DNA of 64,000 nt from Actinomadura sp. KC06 (lineage in GTDB: Bacteria > Actinomycetota > Actinomycetes > Streptosporangiales > Streptosporangiaceae): contig NZ_SMKT01000014.1 in assembly GCF_004348735.1 (NCBI RefSeq), positions 1 through 64,000 on the forward strand, given 5' to 3'. Below the pieces are notes generated by a model, which did no database searches, was not told the DNA's origin, and worked only from the letters and a program-made list of their open reading frames with translations. The stretch's first letter is position 1. Every line of letters begins with the position of its first letter. Positions 3,646 to 46,776 of this stretch are shown piece by piece. The position numbers and the translations under genes were made by a program.

Positions 3646-4182
3646 ATGAGCAGCGCGGTCCTGTACCTCGCCATTGTCGCCGTCTGGGGCATCGTCCTCG
3701 TGCCCATGTGGCTGCGCCGCGACACCGAGACGACCGGCATCACCCGGCTCCTCCACAAGCGCTCCGACGAGACCCTCGTCGAGGACGAGGCAGCGGAAGA
3801 GGAGCCCGAGGAGATCCCGGAGCCGCGTCCCCGCCGCCGGACGACCCGCGCCACCGTGATCGCCCGGCGCCGCCGCCGCACCACCGGCCTCACGGCCCTG
3901 ATCCTCACCGCCGCGGCCGTCGTCGCGTCCGGCTTCGCCCCCTGGTGGATCACCATGCCCCCGGCCGTCCTCATGGCCGGCCACCTGGCCCTCCTCCGCG
4001 TCGCCGTGGGCATGGACACCGCCCGCCGCCGCGCCGCCGCGGAGGCCCGCGCCAAGGCCCTGGAAGCCCGCCGCGCCGCCGAGACCGCCGAGCCCGTCGA
4101 GACCGCGGAGGTCATCGAACTCCTCACCCCCGAGGAGGTCTTCGACCAGTACGCCGACGACCGCCGCGCCGTCGGCGAATGA
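3646..4182 (+). CDS. sepX: SepX/GlpR-type divisome membrane protein
   Basis: A 178-residue protein with an N-terminal transmembrane helix (about residues 4-20, ending PMWLRRD). A Glu-rich stretch and an Arg-rich stretch follow, then two closely spaced hydrophobic helices (about 80-120) and a charged Ala/Glu/Arg C-terminal coil. This matches the actinobacterial SepX/GlpR family, which binds division proteins at the septum. ATG 3646 is preferred over GTG 3637 because the family begins with this helix. The GNAT gene upstream and tRNA-Ala downstream fit the usual neighbourhood. Confidence 0.8.
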   Translation: MSSAVLYLAIVAVWGIVLVPMWLRRDTETTGITRLLHKRSDETLVEDEAAEEEPEEIPEPRPRRRTTRATVIARRRRRTTGLTALILTAAAVVASGFAPWWITMPPAVLMAGHLALLRVAVGMDTARRRAAAEARAKALEARRAAETAEPVETAEVIELLTPEEVFDQYADDRRAVGE

Positions 4183-4255: not shown

Positions 4256-4329
4256 GGGGCTGTAGCGCAGTCCGGTAGCGCACCTCGTTCGCATCGAGGG
4301 GGTCAGGGGTTCAAATCCCCTCAGCTCCA
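4256..4329 (+). tRNA. tRNA-Ala (anticodon CGC)
   Basis: A 74-nt cloverleaf: acceptor GGGGCTG pairing with CAGCTCC (one G-U), D-arm GCGC..GCGC, anticodon stem CCTCG/CGAGG with loop TTCGCAT (anticodon CGC), T-arm GGGGT TCAAATC CCC-type, discriminator A. A CCA end is not exactly encoded (CCCA follows). The 3' half is the likely prophage attachment site. Confidence 0.93.
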
Positions 4330-4331
4330 CC
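4308..4331. other. Probable attL core (3' end of tRNA-Ala)
   Basis: The integrase reading frame stops at 4311, inside the tRNA T-arm, which is the usual layout when a tyrosine integrase targets the 3' end of a tRNA. Host-like genes lie left of this point and phage genes right. The matching attR copy should lie beyond 64 kb; none was found in the window, so the exact core is inferred. Confidence 0.6.
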
Positions 4332-6128
4332 CAGGTCAAAGGCTCTTTCTCCCCGCCGGGAGACGGGGCCTTTCGCATGATTGGGAGACGTATGGGAGAC
4401 GACGTTCCCACGCGGCTCCCGGTGGGGGACGAGTAGCTCATCGACCAACCGTACGGGCGAGTGCGGACAGATCTGGGCGCGCTGACTCAAAGCGGTCTCC
4501 CACCTGGTCTGTAGCGCGACCTTCAGATCTTGCCGCATCCCGTCGGTCACGTGCGAATACGTGGCTCCGATCCCGCTGAATACGTGACCGAGCCGGTCAT
4601 GGGACATCACGTCGGGGATGCGGTCCTCGATCATCCATGTCTTCTGCGCGTGCCGCAGCTCGTGCCGGGTGAACCCGGTGCGGACCGGCAGCCACGACGC
4701 CAGTGCCCGCTCCGTCACATGCCCCCGGGAGACGGCCAGCTCCCGCCGGGGCCGGTGCGGCGCCGTCTCCCGGCCGCTCCCCGACAGGCACGCCTTCCCG
4801 ATCGCCGCGGTGCAGGCCGGCACCGGGCAGGCCACCGCGAACGCGTCCACCGCGGGCACGTCCCAGCGCTGCCAGCCCTTGCCCCTGGGCGGCTCCCAGT
4901 CGTCCCCCTCCGCGTAGGGCCACGCGGGCTTCAGCGGCGCCCCGGGGAACCCGGCGGCGGCGTCCACCAGGACGGGCCGGGCCGGGCGCTCGCGCTTGCC
5001 GTCCTCGCCCGGGAAGACCCCGTCGCAGGCGGGCCGCCAGTAGCGGCGGGAGTAGTCCGACCGGGACGGGTGCCCGCCCTCCGCCCCCAGGAACAGCAGT
5101 CGCGGCCCGGCGCCGCAGTCGTACCGGCACCGGCACGGACGCGGCCTGCGCCGCTGCACGTGCGTGGACAGCAGGTCCGACAGGAACGGTGGCAGGTCCA
5201 ACGCGCCGAAGAACTCGGGGTCGTCGTTGCGGAATGCCTCGTCTTTCGGGTCGCATTTGTAGAACTTCCCGTTCAGTTCTCCGAGCTGCCATTCGAGGTG
5301 CAGTTTCGACAGCCGGAAGTTCTCCAGCTCCAATCCGATGACCTCGCCCCACCGCAGCCCGCACCACGCCGCCGTCACCCACATCACGAAATCGTCGTCC
5401 TGGCCGGTGAGCAGCGAGCACCGTTCCGCTATCAGGATCACTTCGAGAGGCGTCGCCCACTGCTTGCCGACGGCGCGGCGCCTGCGGCCCTTCTGCCGGT
5501 TCTTCTTCTTGCCTCTGCCCCGGCGGCGCGCGGCCGCGTTGTCGTCCACCAGGCCCGCCGCCTTGGCGTCGCCGAGAATGGTCGCCAGCAGCGACCTGGA
5601 GTCCGCAGCCGTGCTCTGCGCGTACCGGCCGCCGTTTTCGACGCGGAGGCCGAGTTCCCACGCGGCGATCTCGGCCTCGTCGGTGAGGGTGTTGACCGGC
5701 CGGTGCCCGTACGCGGGGAGGATCATGCGCCGGAGCCGGTAGGAGTACTGGTCGTCGGTACGGACCTCCAGGTCCTGCGCGGGCCACCACGTGGTGTGCA
5801 CGTACTCCTCGAGCGAGATGTCGCCGGCGTTGGGATCCCGGCCGCCGTTCGCTCGGCGCCGCAGTCCTTGGAGGAGCTGCAGCCACCTCTCGAAGGTGAC
5901 GCCGTCGGCCGTCGGCTCGGCATGCCCGGCGTCGACCAGCCGCCGCCACTCGCCGACCAGCCCGCGGACCCACGACTCCTTGTCGTTGGCGGCGTCCAAA
6001 GCCTTCTGTTTCTCGGTGAACGGCCACCCTTCGAGGGTCTCGGACACGGTGCCCCACCGGGGCTTGACGCCCGGGGGGTTCTTGAAACGGCCGCGGTAGT
6101 AGTCACCGCGCCGTTCGACGTACGCCAT
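4311..6128 (-). CDS. int: Tyrosine site-specific integrase
   Basis: A 605-residue recombinase. It has an N-terminal AP2-like arm-binding start (RRGDYYRGRF), a SAM-like core-binding domain at about 105-200 and a catalytic domain from about 225. The catalytic set is visible: R259 in CGLRWGEV, H489 and R492 in HELRHAQK, H515 in LGHVF, and nucleophile Y524 in GATYSHV. It is longer than usual because residues about 330-470 hold a Cys-rich insert (CRCRYDC) and a CPxxxC..GxxC..PHxxRR zinc-binding element. It should catalyse integration into tRNA-Ala. Confidence 0.93.
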   Translation of the reverse strand: MAYVERRGDYYRGRFKNPPGVKPRWGTVSETLEGWPFTEKQKALDAANDKESWVRGLVGEWRRLVDAGHAEPTADGVTFERWLQLLQGLRRRANGGRDPNAGDISLEEYVHTTWWPAQDLEVRTDDQYSYRLRRMILPAYGHRPVNTLTDEAEIAAWELGLRVENGGRYAQSTAADSRSLLATILGDAKAAGLVDDNAAARRRGRGKKKNRQKGRRRRAVGKQWATPLEVILIAERCSLLTGQDDDFVMWVTAAWCGLRWGEVIGLELENFRLSKLHLEWQLGELNGKFYKCDPKDEAFRNDDPEFFGALDLPPFLSDLLSTHVQRRRPRPCRCRYDCGAGPRLLFLGAEGGHPSRSDYSRRYWRPACDGVFPGEDGKRERPARPVLVDAAAGFPGAPLKPAWPYAEGDDWEPPRGKGWQRWDVPAVDAFAVACPVPACTAAIGKACLSGSGRETAPHRPRRELAVSRGHVTERALASWLPVRTGFTRHELRHAQKTWMIEDRIPDVMSHDRLGHVFSGIGATYSHVTDGMRQDLKVALQTRWETALSQRAQICPHSPVRLVDELLVPHREPRGNVVSHTSPNHAKGPVSRRGERAFDLGGAEGI

Positions 6129-8800: not shown

Positions 8801-9172
8801 ATGTGGCCGTTCCGCACGAAGCCGCCCCGCCGCCGGGGTGAGCGCCTCTCCATACGGGAGCTGCGAGAGGCGCTCACCCTCACCGGCGACGACGACCGGG
8901 TGTGGCTCTTGGACCGTCTGGCGGGCGCGGCCCCGACCGCGACCGCACAGGCCCTCCGGGACCTGAGCGAAATGAAGAACCGCGCGGCGGCGGGCGGCAT
9001 GTGCCTGGAGTGCGGCAAGTCGTGGCCGCTGCCGACCGTCCCCACCTACCGGAACGGCGTGCACGGGTTCGTGTGCGACCCGACCTGCAACCCCGCCGCG
9101 CAGCCCCTCGCGCTTTCGGTGTCCACCGAGCCCATGCCCGTCCTCGCCATCCCCCCAGGAGGTACAGCATGA
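8801..9172 (+). CDS. Hypothetical protein with CxxC motif
   Basis: 123 residues. The basic N-terminus (FRTKPPRRRGERLS) leads into a helical region (IRELREALTLTGDDDRVWLLDRL in parts) and one CLEC pair with a later CDPTC pair, likely a structural zinc site. It overlaps the next gene by 4 bp. Function not recognised. Confidence 0.65.
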   Translation: MWPFRTKPPRRRGERLSIRELREALTLTGDDDRVWLLDRLAGAAPTATAQALRDLSEMKNRAAAGGMCLECGKSWPLPTVPTYRNGVHGFVCDPTCNPAAQPLALSVSTEPMPVLAIPPGGTA

Positions 9173-14060: not shown

Positions 14061-14639
14061 ATGAAGAACACCCGGTCCATGCGTGGTAACACACAGCAAG
14101 AGATCGCGCACCCTCCGGCACAGATCGCCCCCGCCTTCAAATCGCCGGACACCGGGCGGGACCTCGCCCAGCTCCTGGCCGAGAAGCGCAACGCTGTCGA
14201 CCACCACGGCCACGAGGCCCAGGCCCGCCGCCAGGACGCCGAGGAGCAGCTCCGCCACAGGAACTCCCGCGAGCAGCTCATCGCCGAAAAGGAGCGGGAG
14301 ATCGAGGAGTTCCGCGCCCAGCGCGAGCGGGAGATCGAGGCGATCCGCCAGGAGATCACCCGCATCGACACTGCGGCCAGGAACGCCAACGGCCAGGCCG
14401 ACCAGCACACCCAGGCGCAGCGCCATGCCCAGCTCGCTGTGCAGGACCTCGAGACGGTGCTCGGCGCGTACGCGCCCGCCGCGCTCGAGCTGGCAGCCCA
14501 GTCGGGCGGGACGCCGCCGAACGGCACCCCTACCAGCGGCGCCCACCCGGACGCGACCGGCGGCTACCCCGTTCCCGTCGCCACGGGCAGCGGCCCCCAG
14601 GAGTTCCCCAACCGCGATCAGACGACGGAGAACCACTGA
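14061..14639 (+). CDS. Coiled-coil protein
   Basis: 192 residues with a long central coiled coil of Glu/Arg heptads (EEQLRHRNSREQLIAEKERE, then IEEFRAQREREIEAIRQEI), flanked by flexible Pro/Gly-rich ends. Preceded by AAGGAGGCAACCC. It might scaffold an assembly, but no family is recognised. Confidence 0.65.
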   Translation: MKNTRSMRGNTQQEIAHPPAQIAPAFKSPDTGRDLAQLLAEKRNAVDHHGHEAQARRQDAEEQLRHRNSREQLIAEKEREIEEFRAQREREIEAIRQEITRIDTAARNANGQADQHTQAQRHAQLAVQDLETVLGAYAPAALELAAQSGGTPPNGTPTSGAHPDATGGYPVPVATGSGPQEFPNRDQTTENH

Positions 14640-14640
14640 C

Positions 14641-14805
14641 ATGGACTACGGCAAAACCCTCCCTGTGACCGGTGCTGGTGTGAGCGCATTCGGCATCTAC
14701 ATCGGCCAGCTCTGGCTGATCGCGGTGGCCGTCGGTCTCGTCGCGGCCGGTGCGGTGCTGATGAAACTGACCTTCCGGCGCGGCAAGAAGGCCGACCACT
14801 CGTGA
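14641..14805 (+). CDS. Tiny LPxTG-type membrane peptide (54 aa)
   Basis: The product starts MDYGKTLPVTGAGVSAFG, followed by a hydrophobic helix of about 25 residues (QLWLIAVAVGLVAAGAVLM) and a basic end FRRGKK. LPxTG plus hydrophobic helix plus positive tail is the layout of a cell-wall sorting signal, yet there is no secretory domain before it: the signal begins at residue 7. It could be a sortase-linked micropeptide or a simple membrane peptide. It overlaps the glycosyltransferase start by 4 bp. Confidence 0.65.
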   Translation: MDYGKTLPVTGAGVSAFGIYIGQLWLIAVAVGLVAAGAVLMKLTFRRGKKADHS

Positions 14806-16154
14806 AGATCTACGAGGCTCGGCGTGCGCGCGGGCGACTGATCACCGTCATGCTCGGCCTCCTGGTCGCGGCGGTCGGATGGTCCATCCACCACGCCATG
14901 GTCACGATGCAGGCCCTGAACGGAGACACCCGCAAGTTCGGGATGGTCTACTCCCTGTCCGCCGCGATGCTGGTCTTCCAGCTCGTCCTCGCGCACGCCG
15001 AGCGGCCCTTCACCGTCACGCGCCGGCAGCAGCGCCATCTCGACAGCCTCAATCTGGCCGTGCTGGTGCCCGCCTACAACGAGGACCCCGAGTTGCTGGT
15101 GCGGTGCCTCATGTCGCTGGGCAACCAGACCCGGCGGCCGGACCACATCCTCGTGGTGGACGACGGCTCCGACAAGGTCGACCTCTCAGCCGTGCGCGCA
15201 TGGTTCCTGGCCGAGGGTGCACGGACGGGGCTCCGCACCTCTTGGGTCCGCACGCCGAATCGGGGCAAGCGCCAGGCGCATGGGACGGCGATCTCGATGG
15301 CACCGGACGCCGACGCGTTCCTCACCGTGGACTCCGACGCCATCCTGGACCGGGAGGCGGTGGCCGAGGGCCTCAAACCACTGGCTCGCAAGGACGTGCA
15401 GGCGGTCGCCGGCGTCGTCCTGGCGGCCAACAACCGCACCACCCTGCTGGCGAGGTTCACCGACCTCTGGTACGTCACCTCCCAGCTGATCGACCGGTCG
15501 TCCCTGTCGGCCATGGGCAGCGTGCTGGTCAACTCCGGGCCGCTGGCGTTCTACCGCGCCGAGACAGTCCGGCAGTACCTGGACACCTACCTGAACGAGA
15601 CGCTGGCTGGCCGCGAGGTCCGGTTCTCCGACGACAGCATGCTCACGCTTTTCGCCAAACTCGAGGGCCGGACAGTCCAGCAGCCGTCCAGCTTCGTCTT
15701 CACCGCGATGCCGGAGAAGGTGGGCAACCACTTCCGCCAGTACACCCGCTGGATGCGGGGCTCGACGGTCCGTAGCCTCTGGCGCTTCCGCTACCTGCCG
15801 GTGACGTCCCTGGCGTACTGGCTGCACTTCAGCCGGTGGGTCTCGATGGCGGTCTCCACCATGCTGTTCGCGGCGCTGTTCCTGGTGCAGCCGGTGGTGG
15901 ACGGAGCGCTGACGCTGTCCCTGCTGGCCATGACAGTCCTGATCGGGTACGCGCAGTGCCTGCGGTACCTCACCGTCTGGCGGTCCGACCAGAGTGTCTG
16001 CTCACAGTGGGCCACCTGGATGCTCGCGCCCCTGGCTGCGCTGTGGGCCTACTTCATCCTGCGGCCGGTCCGCTGGTACGCGATGGCGACGTGCCTGCGC
16101 ACCGGCTGGGGCACCCGCGCCGAGGTCGAAGTCACCCTCGGAGGCGCCTCATGA
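14802..16154 (+). CDS. Processive family-2 glycosyltransferase (hyaluronan/cellulose-synthase-like)
   Basis: 450 residues. Membrane helices lie at about 13-30 and 47-66. The GT-A domain follows, with VPAYNEDPE (90-97), VVDDGSD (118-124), the DxD metal motif TVDSDA (175-180), NSGPLAFYR and RFSDD (274-278), and the processivity motif QYTRW (313-317). C-terminal membrane helices follow from about 335. These motifs mark enzymes that polymerise a sugar chain and extrude it across the membrane. Such a gene is unusual in an early phage operon; it could modify the lysogen surface, for example to exclude other phages. Confidence 0.88.
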   Translation: MKIYEARRARGRLITVMLGLLVAAVGWSIHHAMVTMQALNGDTRKFGMVYSLSAAMLVFQLVLAHAERPFTVTRRQQRHLDSLNLAVLVPAYNEDPELLVRCLMSLGNQTRRPDHILVVDDGSDKVDLSAVRAWFLAEGARTGLRTSWVRTPNRGKRQAHGTAISMAPDADAFLTVDSDAILDREAVAEGLKPLARKDVQAVAGVVLAANNRTTLLARFTDLWYVTSQLIDRSSLSAMGSVLVNSGPLAFYRAETVRQYLDTYLNETLAGREVRFSDDSMLTLFAKLEGRTVQQPSSFVFTAMPEKVGNHFRQYTRWMRGSTVRSLWRFRYLPVTSLAYWLHFSRWVSMAVSTMLFAALFLVQPVVDGALTLSLLAMTVLIGYAQCLRYLTVWRSDQSVCSQWATWMLAPLAALWAYFILRPVRWYAMATCLRTGWGTRAEVEVTLGGAS

Positions 16155-16468
16155 CCGAGGTCATCGTCCTAGTCCTCCTCGGCGCGGCCATCGTGGGCCT
16201 GATCTGGGAAGTCCGGGACCTCCGGAAGAAGGTGCGAGCCGAGCGGGTGCGCGCGGACGCGGAGGCCGCCGACGCTCAACGATCCCGCGCCCGAGCGGTC
16301 ATCGCCGAAGAACACCGCTCTCGCGCCGTCCTCCGCAATGGCGAGGTCCTCGAAGAGGTCGCCGCGGTCGCCGAGTTCCTGCGCACCAACCATCTGCCGC
16401 TGGTCGCAGCCCGCCTGGACCGCCTCGCCAACACTCCGCTCGGCACATCGAGGAGGCAGCGCGCATGA
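16151..16468 (+). CDS. Membrane-anchored coiled-coil small protein
   Basis: 105 residues: one N-terminal helix (EVIVLVLLGAAIVGLIWEV), then a charged coiled coil (RDLRKKVRAERVRADAEAAD). It overlaps the glycosyltransferase stop, so it may work with it at the membrane, by position only. Confidence 0.6.
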   Translation: MTEVIVLVLLGAAIVGLIWEVRDLRKKVRAERVRADAEAADAQRSRARAVIAEEHRSRAVLRNGEVLEEVAAVAEFLRTNHLPLVAARLDRLANTPLGTSRRQRA

Positions 16469-16833
16469 ACTGGCGGACGTTCCTCCTGCCCATCGTCGCG
16501 GCGGCCTGCGGCGGCCTGCTCCTGGTGCCCCAGATCAGCACCCAAGACGTCGACCTCAACACCACCGGCCTGTCCACTGAAGAGGAGGGCGCGTACCTGG
16601 GGTGGGCCCGCACAGAGGCCCCCGAGCTGTGGGCCGCGTCCGACGCCCAGCTGCTCCGCATCGGCCTCGGCCTGTGCGCCGCGATCGACCGCGTCCCGGA
16701 CCCGGTGGTGGAGCCCCGACCGGTCGAGGGCCTGACCGGCCGCGAGATCCACGCCATCACCAACGCCGCGACCCAGCACCTGTGCCCGACCCTCCGGCCC
16801 AAAGTGGCCGGCTACCTGCGGAGCGCCCTGTGA
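16465..16833 (+). CDS. Secreted/anchored DUF732-like protein
   Basis: 122 residues. An N-terminal signal-anchor (FLLPIVAAACGGLLLVPQIS) is followed by a short domain with GLGLCAAIDRV and HLCPTLRPKV, two spaced cysteines like the small extracytoplasmic DUF732-type domains of actinobacteria. It is the last gene before the hairpin array. Confidence 0.55.
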   Translation: MNWRTFLLPIVAAACGGLLLVPQISTQDVDLNTTGLSTEEEGAYLGWARTEAPELWAASDAQLLRIGLGLCAAIDRVPDPVVEPRPVEGLTGREIHAITNAATQHLCPTLRPKVAGYLRSAL

Positions 16834-16886
16834 CGCCCCGCACCCTGTACCGCGTCCCGGGCCATGCCTCCGGCCTGGTGACGCGC

Positions 16887-17375
16887 GCCGAGGAGTCCAG
16901 CTCCCAGGTCTCCTCGGCAACCCCGCCCACCGTCACGATCCCTGCGGTGGGCGGGGCCCCGACTACACAGACGCGCTGGAGCGAGCGCCCCCGCACGGAC
17001 AGCACCCCGTGCGGCGCGGGCCCCTCCAGCGCCGTGGCCGCGCCCCTGACCGGGGGGTGGAGGCGCGGCCAGCAGCCGATCCCGTTCGGGGGAGCGGGAT
17101 CGGCTGCAACCCTCGGCGCCCGCACCCACACCATGCGGGCGCCGAGGGCCCAAACCGCGGACCGGCCAGCAGGGGGGTCTGGCTGGTCCGCACCCGACGC
17201 GGCGGTGTGCACGGCGTTCGCGCCTGAGCTGAGCTCCTCCGCCGCTACCCGCCCGGCCCTGCCTTCCCCGGGGGCCGGGCGGGCCAAGACCCGGGCAGTC
17301 GCGAGTACGCGACTGCCCGCACCAACCGCCAGGGCCCGTCACTCTCGCTCTCCCTTGTCGGTGGCGGGCCCTGGC
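16887..17375. other. Array of about eleven consecutive perfect stem-loops (non-coding)
   Basis: The 568-bp gap between genes at 16834-17401 is filled with GC-rich inverted repeats of unrelated sequence. Stems are 16887-16895/16910-16918 (9 bp), 16921-16932/16945-16956 (12), 16973-16981/17024-17032 (9) with inner 16991-16998/17007-17014 (8), 17036-17044/17062-17070 (9), 17072-17084/17095-17107 (13), 17110-17124/17134-17148 (15), 17157-17169/17179-17191 (13, one G-T), 17199-17205/17239-17245 (7), 17251-17258/17273-17280 (8), 17292-17303/17308-17319 (12) and 17328-17338/17365-17375 (11). All others are perfect. No U-tracts follow. It could be a structured RNA, a single-strand origin or a protein-binding array. 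Confidence 0.9.
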
Positions 17376-17401
17376 ATCACCCACCCCGGGAGGCGGTGAC
17401 C

Positions 17402-18124
17402 ATGCCCTCCGTCCAGATCACCCAACTCACAGACCGGCAGCGAGAGGCCCTTCTCCACGGCAAGACCGTGGGCTGGGTCGCCGCCGCCTTCCAGATCCCA
17501 CGGCCGCAGCTCATCGCCCGGATCACCGCCGAAGGCTGGGTTGTGGACCCCTCAACCGACCGGGCAGGCGAGCGCCCGGCCGAGCCCGCCCAAGCCGAAG
17601 AGAAGGCCACCCCGATGTCTGCTGAGAACCCGACCGCACCCGCCACCACCGGTCCCGCTCCCCAGGGACAGCCCGCAGCCGCGCCGACGCCGACGCCGAC
17701 GCCGACCGAGATGGTGGCCGGTGGGATCGAGCAGCTCCTCGCGGACGCCCACGCCTCGGGCGACAAGAAGCTCGAGCGCGCCGCGGCCAAAGCCTCGACG
17801 GCGATCGACGCGCTGGTGGCGCTCTACGAGCCGTGGCTGGCCGAGAAAAAGGAGGCCGAGGAACGCGCCGCCAAGCTCGCCGAGGTCGAGGCCCGCGCCG
17901 AGCAACTGCGGGCCCAACTGGAGGCGGCGCAGGCCGAGGTCGCCGCGCTGACCGGCAAGCCCACTCGCAAGAGCAACGCGCCGAGCATGGACCGCGAGCG
18001 GTCGCAGGCGATCCGTGCGTGGGCTGCCCGAGAGGGCATCAAGGTCCACCCGCGCGGCCGGATCCCCGGCGAGGTAGTCGAGCGCTACGACGCCGTCCAT
18101 CCGGGGGCACCTGATGGCGCATAG
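17402..18124 (+). CDS. Lsr2-domain DNA-binding protein
   Basis: About 240 residues. The N-terminal 45 residues form a possible HTH (TDRQREALLHGKTVGWVAAA). A Pro/Thr linker, a coiled coil (AEERAAKLAEVEARAEQLRA) and a C-terminal Lsr2-type module follow: SQAIRAWAAREGIKVHPRGR then IPGEVVERYDA. Lsr2 C-termini bind AT-rich minor grooves through an RGR hook, and PRGRIP is kept here. It may silence prophage or rival DNA. ATG 17402 follows GGGAGGCGGTGACC. Confidence 0.8.
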   Translation: MPSVQITQLTDRQREALLHGKTVGWVAAAFQIPRPQLIARITAEGWVVDPSTDRAGERPAEPAQAEEKATPMSAENPTAPATTGPAPQGQPAAAPTPTPTPTEMVAGGIEQLLADAHASGDKKLERAAAKASTAIDALVALYEPWLAEKKEAEERAAKLAEVEARAEQLRAQLEAAQAEVAALTGKPTRKSNAPSMDRERSQAIRAWAAREGIKVHPRGRIPGEVVERYDAVHPGAPDGA

Positions 18125-18410
18125 AAGGCATAGGAACGCGCCCGCCTGCCGGCTGTGCAGCCAGCCGGTGATCTTCGCGCTGACCGAGTCCGGCGCCTAC
18201 CAGCCGCTCGACCCGGAGCCGAACCCGAAGGGCAACGTCCTGGCATTCAAGGACGCGCTCGGCGCCTGGAGGGCTCGGTCCCTGGCGTCAGTCGAAGGCG
18301 ACGCCCGCCACCCCCTTGAGAAGACGTTCATGCCCCATTTCGCGACCTGCAAGGGCCCAGCCCAGCAGGTGCTGCCCGCCAACGTCACCCCCATCCGGAG
18401 GCACACATGA
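18114..18410 (+). CDS. Small zinc-binding protein
   Basis: 98 residues with CRLCSQPV near the N-terminus and HFATCKG near the C-terminus, a CxxC...HxxxC zinc site around a short beta core (TESGAYQPLDPEPNPKGN). Such proteins are common in actinophage early operons; function unknown. Confidence 0.65.
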   Translation: MAHRRHRNAPACRLCSQPVIFALTESGAYQPLDPEPNPKGNVLAFKDALGAWRARSLASVEGDARHPLEKTFMPHFATCKGPAQQVLPANVTPIRRHT

Positions 18411-18928
18411 CCAGGGAAGAGGATCGGGCCAGGCAGCTCGCCGGTGTCCACAACCAGGAGGCGCTGGAGAAGATCGCCGAGCACCTCCACTACAACGAGT
18501 CGATCCACCTGCACGACCTCACCGACGAGGCCGCGAAGGTGTGCAACTACTGCTGGCTCCGCGCCGGCAAAGCGATCCTGGCCCTTCGGATAGCGAAGCT
18601 GCCGATCGTTCTCGGCCGCGACCCCGTCCAGGCCGACGAGCCCGTCGAGATCGAGGCGGAGGTCCTGCACGCGCTCGAGGCCGCGGCGTGCATCGGGGAC
18701 CGCGCCGAGGTGCGGGGCTGGCGCGCCGTCCACATCAGCAACCCCGGCGCTGACCAGGCCCGGCGGATCCTGTTCTTCAGGAGCCAGGACGGCCGGACCT
18801 ACGGTGCGCCGCTCCCGGCGTTCATGCACACCGGCCCCGCCGCCCGTGTCCTGTGCTCGCCCGCCGTGGCACGGCCTGTGGTGACGCAGACCGCCCGGTA
18901 CGAGCTGGCCGAGGCGGTGTCCCGGTGA
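18407..18928 (+). CDS. Hypothetical protein
   Basis: 173 residues. The N-terminal region (ALEKIAEHLHYNESIHLHDL, then VCNYCWLRAGKAILAL) is helical with one CxxC. The C-terminal half is beta-rich (RRILFFRSQDGRTYGAPLPA). No family recognised. Confidence 0.6.
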   Translation: MTREEDRARQLAGVHNQEALEKIAEHLHYNESIHLHDLTDEAAKVCNYCWLRAGKAILALRIAKLPIVLGRDPVQADEPVEIEAEVLHALEAAACIGDRAEVRGWRAVHISNPGADQARRILFFRSQDGRTYGAPLPAFMHTGPAARVLCSPAVARPVVTQTARYELAEAVSR

Positions 18929-24798: not shown

Positions 24799-26419
24799 TC
24801 GGGATCGCAGGGTTCACCGGCGTCACATGGCGGGATGCGGCCGTGCAGGCGCGGCATGGCGAGGCCGCGCTGTGGAAGGCCGCGCAGGCGGTGACCAGCC
24901 AGCTGGCTGGTCGGATCGGCGAGCGTGCCGCGGTGGCGTGGGTCCACACTGCCGCCGTCGTCGACCACGCTGGCCGCTATGGGCTCATCTCGGCCGAGAA
25001 CCTCGACGATTCTGCTGCGATCCGGAAACAGGCTGAGCAGCTCGCCTCGTGCAACCCGGCGCTCGCCGGCTTCGCTGACCCTGCTGCGAACCCGATGTGG
25101 GACGCCGACCCTGGCGACGCGGCGGCCGACATCGCGGCCCTGTACGCCGAGCACACGACCGTGGACCTGCCGGGCGTCCCGGACGGGTACCGCATCGGTG
25201 ACCTCTACCAGCAGCTCAGCGAAGAGGCGCGTAAGGGACGCGCGCTGTGCCAGACCCCGCCATGGGTCACCGACCTGCTCCTGTCCCTGTCCCTCGACCA
25301 TGCCGCCGACGAAGCCGGATGGGATGGACTGCGCTCGCTGAAGGTCATCGACCCGGCGTGCGGGACCGGGCACGTCCTAGTCGAGACTTTCCTGCGGCTG
25401 GAAGCGTGGCAGTGGCTGCACCCAGGGGCACCCCGCGTGCGCGGTGCCCTAGTGCCGGACGTGCTGGCGCAGGTCCACGGATGCGACCTGGACCCGTACG
25501 CGGCGCTGATCGCCCGGTACCGGCTGTGCGCCTTGGCCGCCGCGATGAGCGGCACCGACCTTGCCGGGCTACCCGCGGATCTGCCGGTGCAGGTGGCCAC
25601 CGCAGATTCCCTGCTCGCCGACGATGAGCCATTGCTGGCGCGCGGTGCCTACGACGTGGTGGTGATGAACCCGCCCTACATCACCCCGAAGGACGCCCTG
25701 GCCCGGGACGCGGTCCGCGCCCGGTACCCGGACGTGTGCCACCGAAAGTACGCACTCTCACTGCCGTTCCACGCGCTGGCCAATGACCTGCTCAAGCCGG
25801 GAGGCTGGTGCGCGCAGCTCACCGCGAACAGCTTCATGAAACGAGAGTTCGGCAAGCCGTACGTCGAGAAGTACCTGTCAGGGCTGGACCTGCATTGGGT
25901 GATCGACACCTCCGGCGCCTACTCCCTGGCCACGGCACCCCCACCGTCATCCTCGTCAACCGCAACCAGCCCCCAACCGCGCCCATGGTGTCGACCGTGC
26001 GAGGCGCCCAAGGCGAACCCTCGGTTTCGGAACTCCCGGGCCGCGGCATTGTGTGGACACAGCTCCGCCACGCCGTCCGCGAACGCGACCAAGCCGCCCG
26101 CCTCGACGCGCTCCTGGACCGCAGCGACAGCCAGGAGCTGCACGCCGCGTCCGAGGAACCACCCCCGGTGCCGGTACCTGATGGAGACCGGCCGTCAGCG
26201 CAGGGCGCGCCCACTCCGAAGCGGAGACGTGCGGCACCGTCCGCAGTTGGCCAGCTCGATCTGCTCATCGAGGTGGCGGAAGAGGGAGCGGGCACGCAGC
26301 AGGCCCGGGTGGCGCAACGGCGACGGAGCCGCCTTAAAGGCGGCATCTCTGCGGGTTCGAATCCCGCCCCGGGCACCTGGCGGCAGGCCAAGCAGGCGAG
26401 CGACCGGGGGCCGAAATGA
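24795..26419 (+). pseudogene. N6-adenine DNA methyltransferase, frameshifted
   Basis: Residues 1-375 read well: motif I DPACGTGH (185-192) binds AdoMet and motif IV NPPY (292-295) is catalytic. At about 25923 the frame breaks: after DTSGAY the expected continuation PGHGTPTVILVNRN is found one frame over and runs to 26419. One missing base (TAC-TCC where TAC-ATC-C would restore the frame) explains it. Either the gene is dead or the base is an assembly error. The intact form would protect phage DNA from host restriction. A tRNA-like gene sits inside its 3' end. Confidence 0.8.
26303..26375 (+). tRNA. tRNA-like gene, anticodon UAA (Leu-type), short variable loop
   Basis: 73 nt. Acceptor GCCCGGG/CCCGGGC is perfect, anticodon stem GCCGC/GCGGC with loop CTTAAAG (anticodon TAA at 26335-26337 counting T33 before it), T-arm GCGGG TTCGAAT CCCGC is perfect, discriminator A. 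The D-arm is poor, with only about two pairs. UUA-reading tRNAs are normally long-variable-arm Leu tRNAs, but here only about 6 nt separate the anticodon and T arms. It lies in the 3' end of the methylase frame. Phage-borne and possibly non-standard. Confidence 0.65.
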
Positions 26420-45615: not shown

Positions 45616-45662
45616 GGCCGCCCCCCGGGGCCAGGGTGCGGCCTGGCCCCGGGGGGACGGCC
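45616..45662 (+). terminator. Long GC-rich terminator hairpin
   Basis: A stem of about 20 bp: GGCCG-CCCCCCGGGGCCAGG pairing with CCTGGCCCCGGGGGG-ACGGCC around GTGCGG, directly after the DUF932 stop. One bulge. Confidence 0.8.
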
Positions 45663-46680: not shown

Positions 46681-46698
46681 CGCACCCCACCGGCGCCC

Positions 46699-46726
46699 GG
46701 GGAGGCCAGCAGCCGCTGGCCTCCCC
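46699..46726 (+). terminator. Hairpin terminator
   Basis: Perfect 12-bp stem GGGGAGGCCAGC / GCTGGCCTCCCC with a 4-base loop AGCC, after the gene ending at 46680. Confidence 0.8.
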
Positions 46727-46776
46727 GAGTCCGGCCCGGCGCACGACCAGGCCCCAACCCTGACAGGAGGACCCCC

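Follow-up and report, generated by a model that had tools for sequence, protein, structure and literature searches.

Genomic setting

The window analysed here, 64,000 bases in all, is the beginning of an 81,198-bp contig from a genome of 9.38 Mb. The region is a prophage of an Actinomadura-type genome, as is evident from an integrase-like gene (4311-6128, - strand) that overlaps the end of a tRNA-Ala gene, followed by RecE- and RecT-like genes and, further along, by terminase, portal, protease, head and tail genes. The tRNA-Ala gene together with the end of the 605-aa integrase-like gene (4256-6128) is a likely attachment site. All called genes between 8,033 and 28,448 lie on the + strand, and 4-bp overlaps are frequent. 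The early run includes a glycosyltransferase gene (14802-16154) that is related at the DNA level to sequences of Streptomyces phage Kromp and of Pseudonocardia plasmids, and a predicted gene (8801-9172) that contains a 15-bp perfect stem (8836-8879). The contig itself opens with a perfect 20-bp inverted repeat with a 9-nt loop (1-49), and the assembly may therefore have stopped at a hairpin. A tRNA-Leu called by ARAGORN inside a methyltransferase-like gene (26303-26377) has no Rfam match at the cut-off and is probably false.

Within the early run a gap of 568 bp (16834-17401), of the size given in an earlier note on this DNA, separates a short gene from the next cistron. The latter does carry an Lsr2 DNA-binding domain, as that note had it. 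The gap is filled with hairpins (Table 1).

Table 1. Hairpins of the array and flanking features in the window; L016 denotes the corresponding locus of the WMMA1423 prophage
Feature	Position	Strand	Remarks
Upstream gene, 122 aa	16465..16833	+	Gene call; weak DUF732 similarity (E 0.0037, below family cut-off)
Open frame, 189 codons, judged not a gene	16830..17399	+	GTG 16830 to TGA 17399
Hairpin array, 12 local stem-loops H0-H11	16850..17376	+	Inverted repeats, fold, compensatory changes, shuffles
H0	16850..16884	+	Absent from the earlier note; 74% identity to L016; pairs kept, one two-sided change
H1	16887..16918	+	Inverted repeat; mapped to L016
H2	16920..16957	+	Stem sequence unchanged in L016; 91% identity over hairpin
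H3, long imperfect hairpin	16973..17032	+	93% identical to L016
H4	17034..17072	+	Loop GGGGGG kept in L016; stem G-C to T-A change, both sides
H5	17072..17107	+	Loop GGGGG (GGGGGG in L016); five two-sided changes
H6	17110..17148	+	15-bp perfect stem; one two-sided change
H7	17157..17191	+	Loop GGGGGG kept in L016; three two-sided changes
H8, weakest hairpin	17201..17246	+	Fold; mapped to L016
H9	17247..17284	+	Inverted repeat; whole extra hairpin (39 nt) just after H9 in L016
H10	17292..17319	+	One two-sided change; loop 12 nt longer in L016
H11	17327..17376	+	Ends 19 nt before start codon GTG 17396
Downstream gene	17396..18124	+	Lsr2 DNA-binding domain at C-terminus (E 5.7e-13); start GTG 17396 or ATG 17402
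98-aa gene, phrog_5984-like	18114..18410	+	Relative near hairpin row in all five phages
173-aa gene of same overlapping gene run	18407..18928	+	Gene call

The hairpin array

The earlier note described eleven consecutive stem-loops between two early genes. The inverted repeats are found there, and with one further hairpin the array comprises 12 local hairpins, H0-H11. Ten of the eleven stems had been called perfect and, by eye, 10 of the 11 hairpins H1-H11 have 7 or more perfect base pairs in a row, the one at 17201-17246 being weak. Also by eye, the hairpins at 16887, 17157 and 17328 have a mismatch or a G-T pair further along the stem. The array has a GC content of 77%.

The hairpins are far beyond chance, as had been claimed. 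A scan for perfect stems (9 bp or longer, loops of 3-20) finds 7 in the gap that do not overlap, where 500 dinucleotide shuffles of the gap give a mean of 0.196 and a maximum of 2; for stems of at least 12 bp, the count is 5 vs a shuffle mean of 0.004 and a maximum of 1 (again 500 shuffles). When 568-bp windows are stepped along the 64 kb, 1,049 of 1,269 have no such stem and 12 have three or more; among the stem positions listed for the window, three such stems lie that close together only at the array. Folding of the gap as + RNA gives z = -10.9 and as - RNA z = -7.8, with 0 of 100 shuffles as good in either case. Simple repeats do not account for the row, again as stated earlier: four two-copy direct-repeat families occur in 16500-17800, of which a single one, 10 nt long, is inside the array, and a CRISPR or tandem repeat array is therefore not present. 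A search of the 64-kb window with Rfam 15 at the gathering score yields only two tRNAs, and no GOLLD, ROOL or other family.

A model built on H2-H4 weakly matches the array a second time, at 17109-17192 (H6-H7; E 0.0021) in the window and at 3660-3744 (E 0.0013) in the WMMA1423 copy L017. Together with a match in L196 (below), they point to a possible repeated module, made up of a stem and a further hairpin with a G6 loop.

Compensatory changes

The sole sequence relative found is in a prophage of Actinomadura sp. WMMA1423 (genome G080), locus L016, which is the same as L017 and part of L170. Over 16880-17160 it is 81% identical to the window, and its fold has z = -12.2 (0 of 20 shuffles as good). 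A search for compensatory changes in relatives had been proposed earlier, and such changes are present. The structure predicted from one sequence was mapped to the other, in both directions, and letters were shuffled within source-letter classes; pairs with gaps (2 and 19 in the two directions) are left out of the counts. Between window and L016 there are 15 two-sided changes that keep pairing, where 4.4 (sd 1.6) and 2.8 (sd 1.5) are expected (p ≤ 5e-5). Canonical pairs number 147 of 164 when the window structure is placed on L016 (null 128.5) and 162 of 185 when the L016 structure is placed on the window (null 142.9), p ≤ 5e-5 in each direction. The mapped pairs that are broken, 17 of 164 in L016 and 23 of 185 in the window, result from a one-sided change in 12 and 18 cases, respectively, and from a change on both sides in 5 cases in each. 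Thus, pairing is under selection in the window/WMMA1423 pair.

Paired positions are 82% identical between the two sequences and unpaired positions 67%. The degree of identity is uneven, 91% over H2 and 93% over H3 vs 56% over H5 and H11, and constraint therefore differs between hairpins. In contrast to H2 and H3, the third codon positions of the adjacent Lsr2-like gene differ in 107 of 233 codons. The turnover of stems with kept pairing fits a role that is mainly one of structure. The near-unchanged H2-H3 and the G-runs kept in three loops suggest a sequence-specific partner for some hairpins.

The earlier proposal of a large structured RNA stands as far as the compensatory changes go, but the structure is a row of independent hairpins and not one multibranched fold. 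A consensus fold of A6 mixed long-range pairs into the row and was set aside. The WMMA1423 locus also has about 2 kb (L016 1346-3390), with two genes without a Pfam match, between the gene that resembles 16465-16833 and the array. A 4-bp overlap with the frame that spans the array is retained.

Rows of hairpins in other phages

Three more phages have shorter rows in a similar gap near the 98-aa gene: six hairpins in L196, six in L197 and about three in L220. L196 and L197 are viral contigs reached via the 98-aa gene; L220 is a third Actinomadura-type prophage (genome G081), with the row at 1318-1455. In L196 and L197 the row is flanked by a short gene and a gene whose product starts MT(A/D)QPYDPG. 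In L220 it lies between the 98-aa gene and a gene like the upstream gene of the window, the similarity being seen by eye at the C-terminus, and no Lsr2-like gene is alongside. The distance from the upstream stop codon to the first stem is about 14-20 nt across the five phages (window 16, L196 14, L197 15), and that from the last stem to the next start is 19-37 nt in all five (window 19, L220 27, with an ATG start). In the window, 6 of the 8 hairpins scored have arms that lean to a C-rich 5′ side; the figures are 10 of 12 for L016, 2 of 5 for L196, 2 of 4 for L197 and 2 of 2 for L220. This tendency was left out of the judgement.

The rows in L196, L197 and L220 have no clear sequence similarity to the window array, and those of L196 and L197 resemble each other. 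The H2-H4 model finds L196 5396-5477 at E 0.08 and has no match in L197 or L220 up to E 5. Two-sided changes between L196 and L197 number 1 and 3 vs 1.2 and 1.3 expected (p 0.74 and 0.11), in an alignment in which the last hairpin looks misplaced; by eye, the stem of this hairpin has changed from C-G to T-A at one pair. Significant covariation comes from one phage pair only, the window and WMMA1423. The case for the same element in the other three phages is weaker and rests on position and shape.

Matches to the 98-aa gene occur in 33 of 338 genomes, and among the 30 loci read a row (stems of at least 10 bp) adjoins the gene in 3 (own, G080 and G081). At L246 three hairpins are present, but more than 1 kb upstream of the gene. 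Viral loci with the 98-aa gene have a row in 4 of 21 (L194, which is the window, L195, which is WMMA1423, L196 and L197); 8 of the 21 were read in detail and the others were judged by hairpin counts. The dense hairpins of L198, L211, L212 and L213, set aside by eye, resembled operator-like palindromes or coding-region stems, and L169 (G075), which has an Lsr2-like gene, is not among the 25 loci richest in hairpins. A DNA search of 59 relatives matched 12 genomes, one of them the window's own; in the other 11 the matching stretches do not exceed 69 nt, and the hairpins at their loci were counted. When 16880-17160 was compared with 341 family genomes, the array came up in 2, the window's own genome and that of WMMA1423; 9 further genomes have matching stretches no longer than 67 nt, judged likewise by hairpin counts. 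Two of 345 genomes matched at the order level, and the H2-H4 model matched 1 of 394 at the class level; the relative, family, order and class samples overlap. Neither phages (best E 0.2) nor plasmids (best E 0.004 over 27 nt) yielded an array match that merited follow-up, and there was none for the L196 row as query, nor for the Lsr2-like and 173-aa proteins in phages. A pattern search with H6 finds only the two known phages and a viral scan with A7 only L196 and L197 again. A short pattern was unspecific among the matches listed, as was one derived from L196, whose match L251 is unrelated.

Transcription and alternative explanations

We infer that the array acts as + strand RNA; this is favoured by the direction of the operon and by the z value, which is stronger than that of the - RNA. 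A wobble test of one-sided changes gave 21 G-T to 13 A-C (p = 0.11), counts that include alternative registers and pairs outside the twelve hairpins. The absence of U-tracts, pointed out earlier, is evident from 0 terminator-like sites in 16400-18200; in particular, six stems of the array reach 10 bp or more, and none of them has within the next 15 nt a T-run that would mark a canonical intrinsic terminator. A promoter scan around the array found no site. The scan is limited to the sigma-70 consensus, and thus a phage promoter inside the array is possible. With the last stem 19-37 nt before the next start and no promoter-like site, transcription of the downstream gene probably passes through the array.

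The array might be a plain U-less hairpin-cluster terminator, of the I-shaped or cluster kind of GC-rich bacteria, that ends the upstream operon, although this seems unlikely. According to excerpts of PMC8355165, the hairpins of cluster terminators are spaced by less than 15 bases and lie within about 80 bases of the stop codon; those of the array are likewise closely packed, starting 16 nt after the stop codon, with 10 of 11 gaps being at most 9 nt. The gap before H3 is 15 nt, and strictly the row therefore forms two adjoining clusters. U-less stem-loops are common at RNA 3′ ends of Streptomyces clavuligerus, where they make up 353 of the 535 structured ones (PMC8269248). The same phage has single GC-rich U-less stem-loops at 45621-45656 and 46698-46727, 7 and 17 nt after gene ends, which are possible phage terminators. 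Against termination as the sole function are the start of the next gene so soon after the last stem, in all five phages and with no promoter-like site, and the number of hairpins together with the conservation of H2 and H3, which is more than a terminator should need. A leaky version of the cluster or U-less mechanism may nevertheless be part of the answer. That the hairpins merely happen to lie in a protein-coding gene, the frame from GTG 16830 to TGA 17399, has very little probability. In the window the frame is open over 189 codons and in L016 over 203 (59% identity), and its start and stop overlap the neighbouring genes. The best evidence for coding is that 5 of 7 indels inside the frame are multiples of three (3, 3, 6, 39 and 12 vs 2 and 1). 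A conserved coding frame in place of compensatory changes had been named earlier as the finding that would refute a structured RNA; the frame is open in L016 but has no coding signature, since GC by codon position is 0.68/0.78/0.86 (0.75/0.79/0.88 in L016) vs 0.76/0.56/0.86 in the neighbour, and second-position GC in compared phage genes is 0.47-0.59. Substitutions by codon position (49/35/47) show no excess at third positions, and the product has no Pfam match. The dN/dS of 0.86 is weak evidence, as the pairs for 14061-14639 and 18407-18928 gave 0.83 and 0.59. In the L196/L197 row, which may be another element, six 1-nt, one 2-nt and one 3-nt indel shift the frame. The array frame is judged not to be a gene.

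Perfect inverted repeats fold as DNA too, and the wobble counts do not separate RNA from DNA pairing to a significant degree. A DNA-level element, whether a cruciform or a site of single-strand initiation, recombination or packaging, has only a small probability. RecE- and RecT-like genes are present 4-6 kb upstream and the gene at 14061-14639 weakly resembles a head scaffolding family (E 0.0031), but the genes directly flanking the array have no replication or packaging match, a GC content this high does not suit an origin, and the fold is stronger as + RNA than as - RNA. Nothing was found of the packaging or single-strand replication signal suggested earlier. It is highly improbable that the array serves, as a decoy or for autoregulation, to bind the Lsr2-type protein encoded next to it or some other protein that recognises stems. 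The adjoining gene does have an Lsr2 domain. However, Lsr2 prefers AT-rich DNA, which the array is not, and the L220 row without an Lsr2-like gene alongside speaks mildly against an Lsr2 decoy.

G-rich loops and the 6C RNA

Because three loops keep G5-G6 runs, the array can also be read as a phage-encoded sponge of the host 6C sRNA, in which the loops of H4, H5 and H7 would pair with the C7 loops found in the 6C sequences read. This would be a long shot. The G-loops would titrate 6C and free the messages that it represses, so that a host regulon would be switched off during early infection; the array would be an antisense image of 6C. The 6C homologue B11 of Mycobacterium abscessus, according to an excerpt of PMC10470900, represses a target with a six-G leader tract via its C-rich loops. 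In L016 the G-runs of H4, H5 and H7 persist amid changes in the adjacent letters; of each run, four or five G are unpaired in the window, compared with three or four in L016. All three + strand G6 runs of L017 (8.9 kb) are inside the array, and L196 and L197 have one G6 run each in a row hairpin. A 6C RNA scores over the Rfam cut-off in 29 of 30 same-genus genomes, and in the WMMA1423 host (60.1 bits). The only one of the 30 below the cut-off is the genome of the window (G000), in which 6C appears to be split by a contig break, contigs C84 and C208 (L252 and L254) ending inside the second C-run; such a split would account for the low score. The WMMA1423 6C region matches these two contig ends, and therefore the genome's own 6C gene is most likely present.

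Other observations weaken the sponge interpretation. The number of G6 runs is marginal relative to shuffles with perfect arms fixed (P 0.055, 0.030, 0.084, 0.10 and 1 for the five rows, which are not independent). Outside the array are 7 of the 9 + strand G6 runs of the window and 8 of 9 in each of L196 and L197. Most array hairpins have no G loop, and pairing takes up most of the G5 in L220 and about half of that in L197. RNAduplex energies, which ignore folding and come with no control, were left out of the judgement. On the minus strand, H5 and H4 are two hairpins with C5-C6 loops that fit the 6C model RF01066 end to end, with scores (27.4 and 26.5 bits for the window, 28.7 bits for L016) that stay below the cut-off of 47 bits. 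The 6C arrangement of two adjacent hairpins with about six C per loop is found only on this strand, opposite the genes, and one of the window's loops has five C. A literature search, within the parts of sources that it covered, found no actinophage sponge of 6C, and we know of no phage antagonist of the 6C/B11 sRNA.

A chromosomal hairpin with a GGGGGG loop is alike in two Actinomadura-type genomes (L183 1504-1542, in G000:C99, and L193, in G080). This could be a terminator or else an element not yet recognised.

Proposed role of the array

The array is, with high confidence, a selected structured element. The best explanation is that, in a small family of Actinomadura-type phages, the early transcript carries a non-coding structured RNA between two of its cistrons. 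Such an intercistronic element is preferred over a plain terminator because the closeness of the next gene to the last stem (19 nt) and the lack of a promoter-like site place the array probably inside the message. The mechanism is more tentative, at somewhat less than an even chance: the array perhaps insulates and stabilises parts of the early transcript. The hairpins would block exonucleases and ribosomes and would partly halt RNA polymerase, and the upstream and downstream cistrons would thereby obtain separate stability and dosage. Perhaps the array also persists as a stable RNA. A putative role in mRNA processing or stability fits these properties.

Should the array be a dedicated RNA element, its hairpins form an unusually long series to which no Rfam family corresponds, and between two relatives an entire hairpin was gained or lost with place and pairing unchanged. 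It would also provide a compact natural test of the effect of serial hairpins on transcription, decay and translation in very GC-rich bacteria, in which little is understood of U-less terminators. Were the sponge interpretation of the loops true, phages would be linked to the 6C/B11 sRNA.

Relationship to known systems

GOLLD and ROOL are long structured non-coding RNAs of phage genomes and have multibranched folds. Prophage-encoded sRNA sponges or anti-sRNAs, such as AgvB, also exist. A sponge function of the array would work likewise; what is seen here is complementarity and loop exposure. From 6C RNA (RF01066) the array differs in that the match is on the strand opposite the genes and below the cut-off, and in that there are ten further hairpins. 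From the phage-associated GOLLD and ROOL RNAs (PMC12286853) it differs in that its hairpins follow one another in a line and that no Rfam family is matched at the cut-off. A literature search of titles and the starts of abstracts found no such hairpin array in an actinophage.

The array shares with cluster or I-shaped U-less terminators, in the portions of PMC8355165 and PMC8269248 that describe them, the GC-rich stems, the lack of a U-tract, the close spacing and the position just after a stop codon. It differs from such terminators in having far more than their usual two or three hairpins, in the next gene 19 nt after its last stem and in the partly conserved stem sequence.

Known cases of intercistronic stem-loops have one or a few stem-loops, whereas the row has 12 here and about 3 to 13 in the other phages. 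The likeness is to stem-loops for stability or processing such as those of the cip-cel operon (PMC10311766), which are also hairpins between the cistrons of one gene run. With no Rfam family that fits, the array appears to be an intercistronic structured RNA in a new form.
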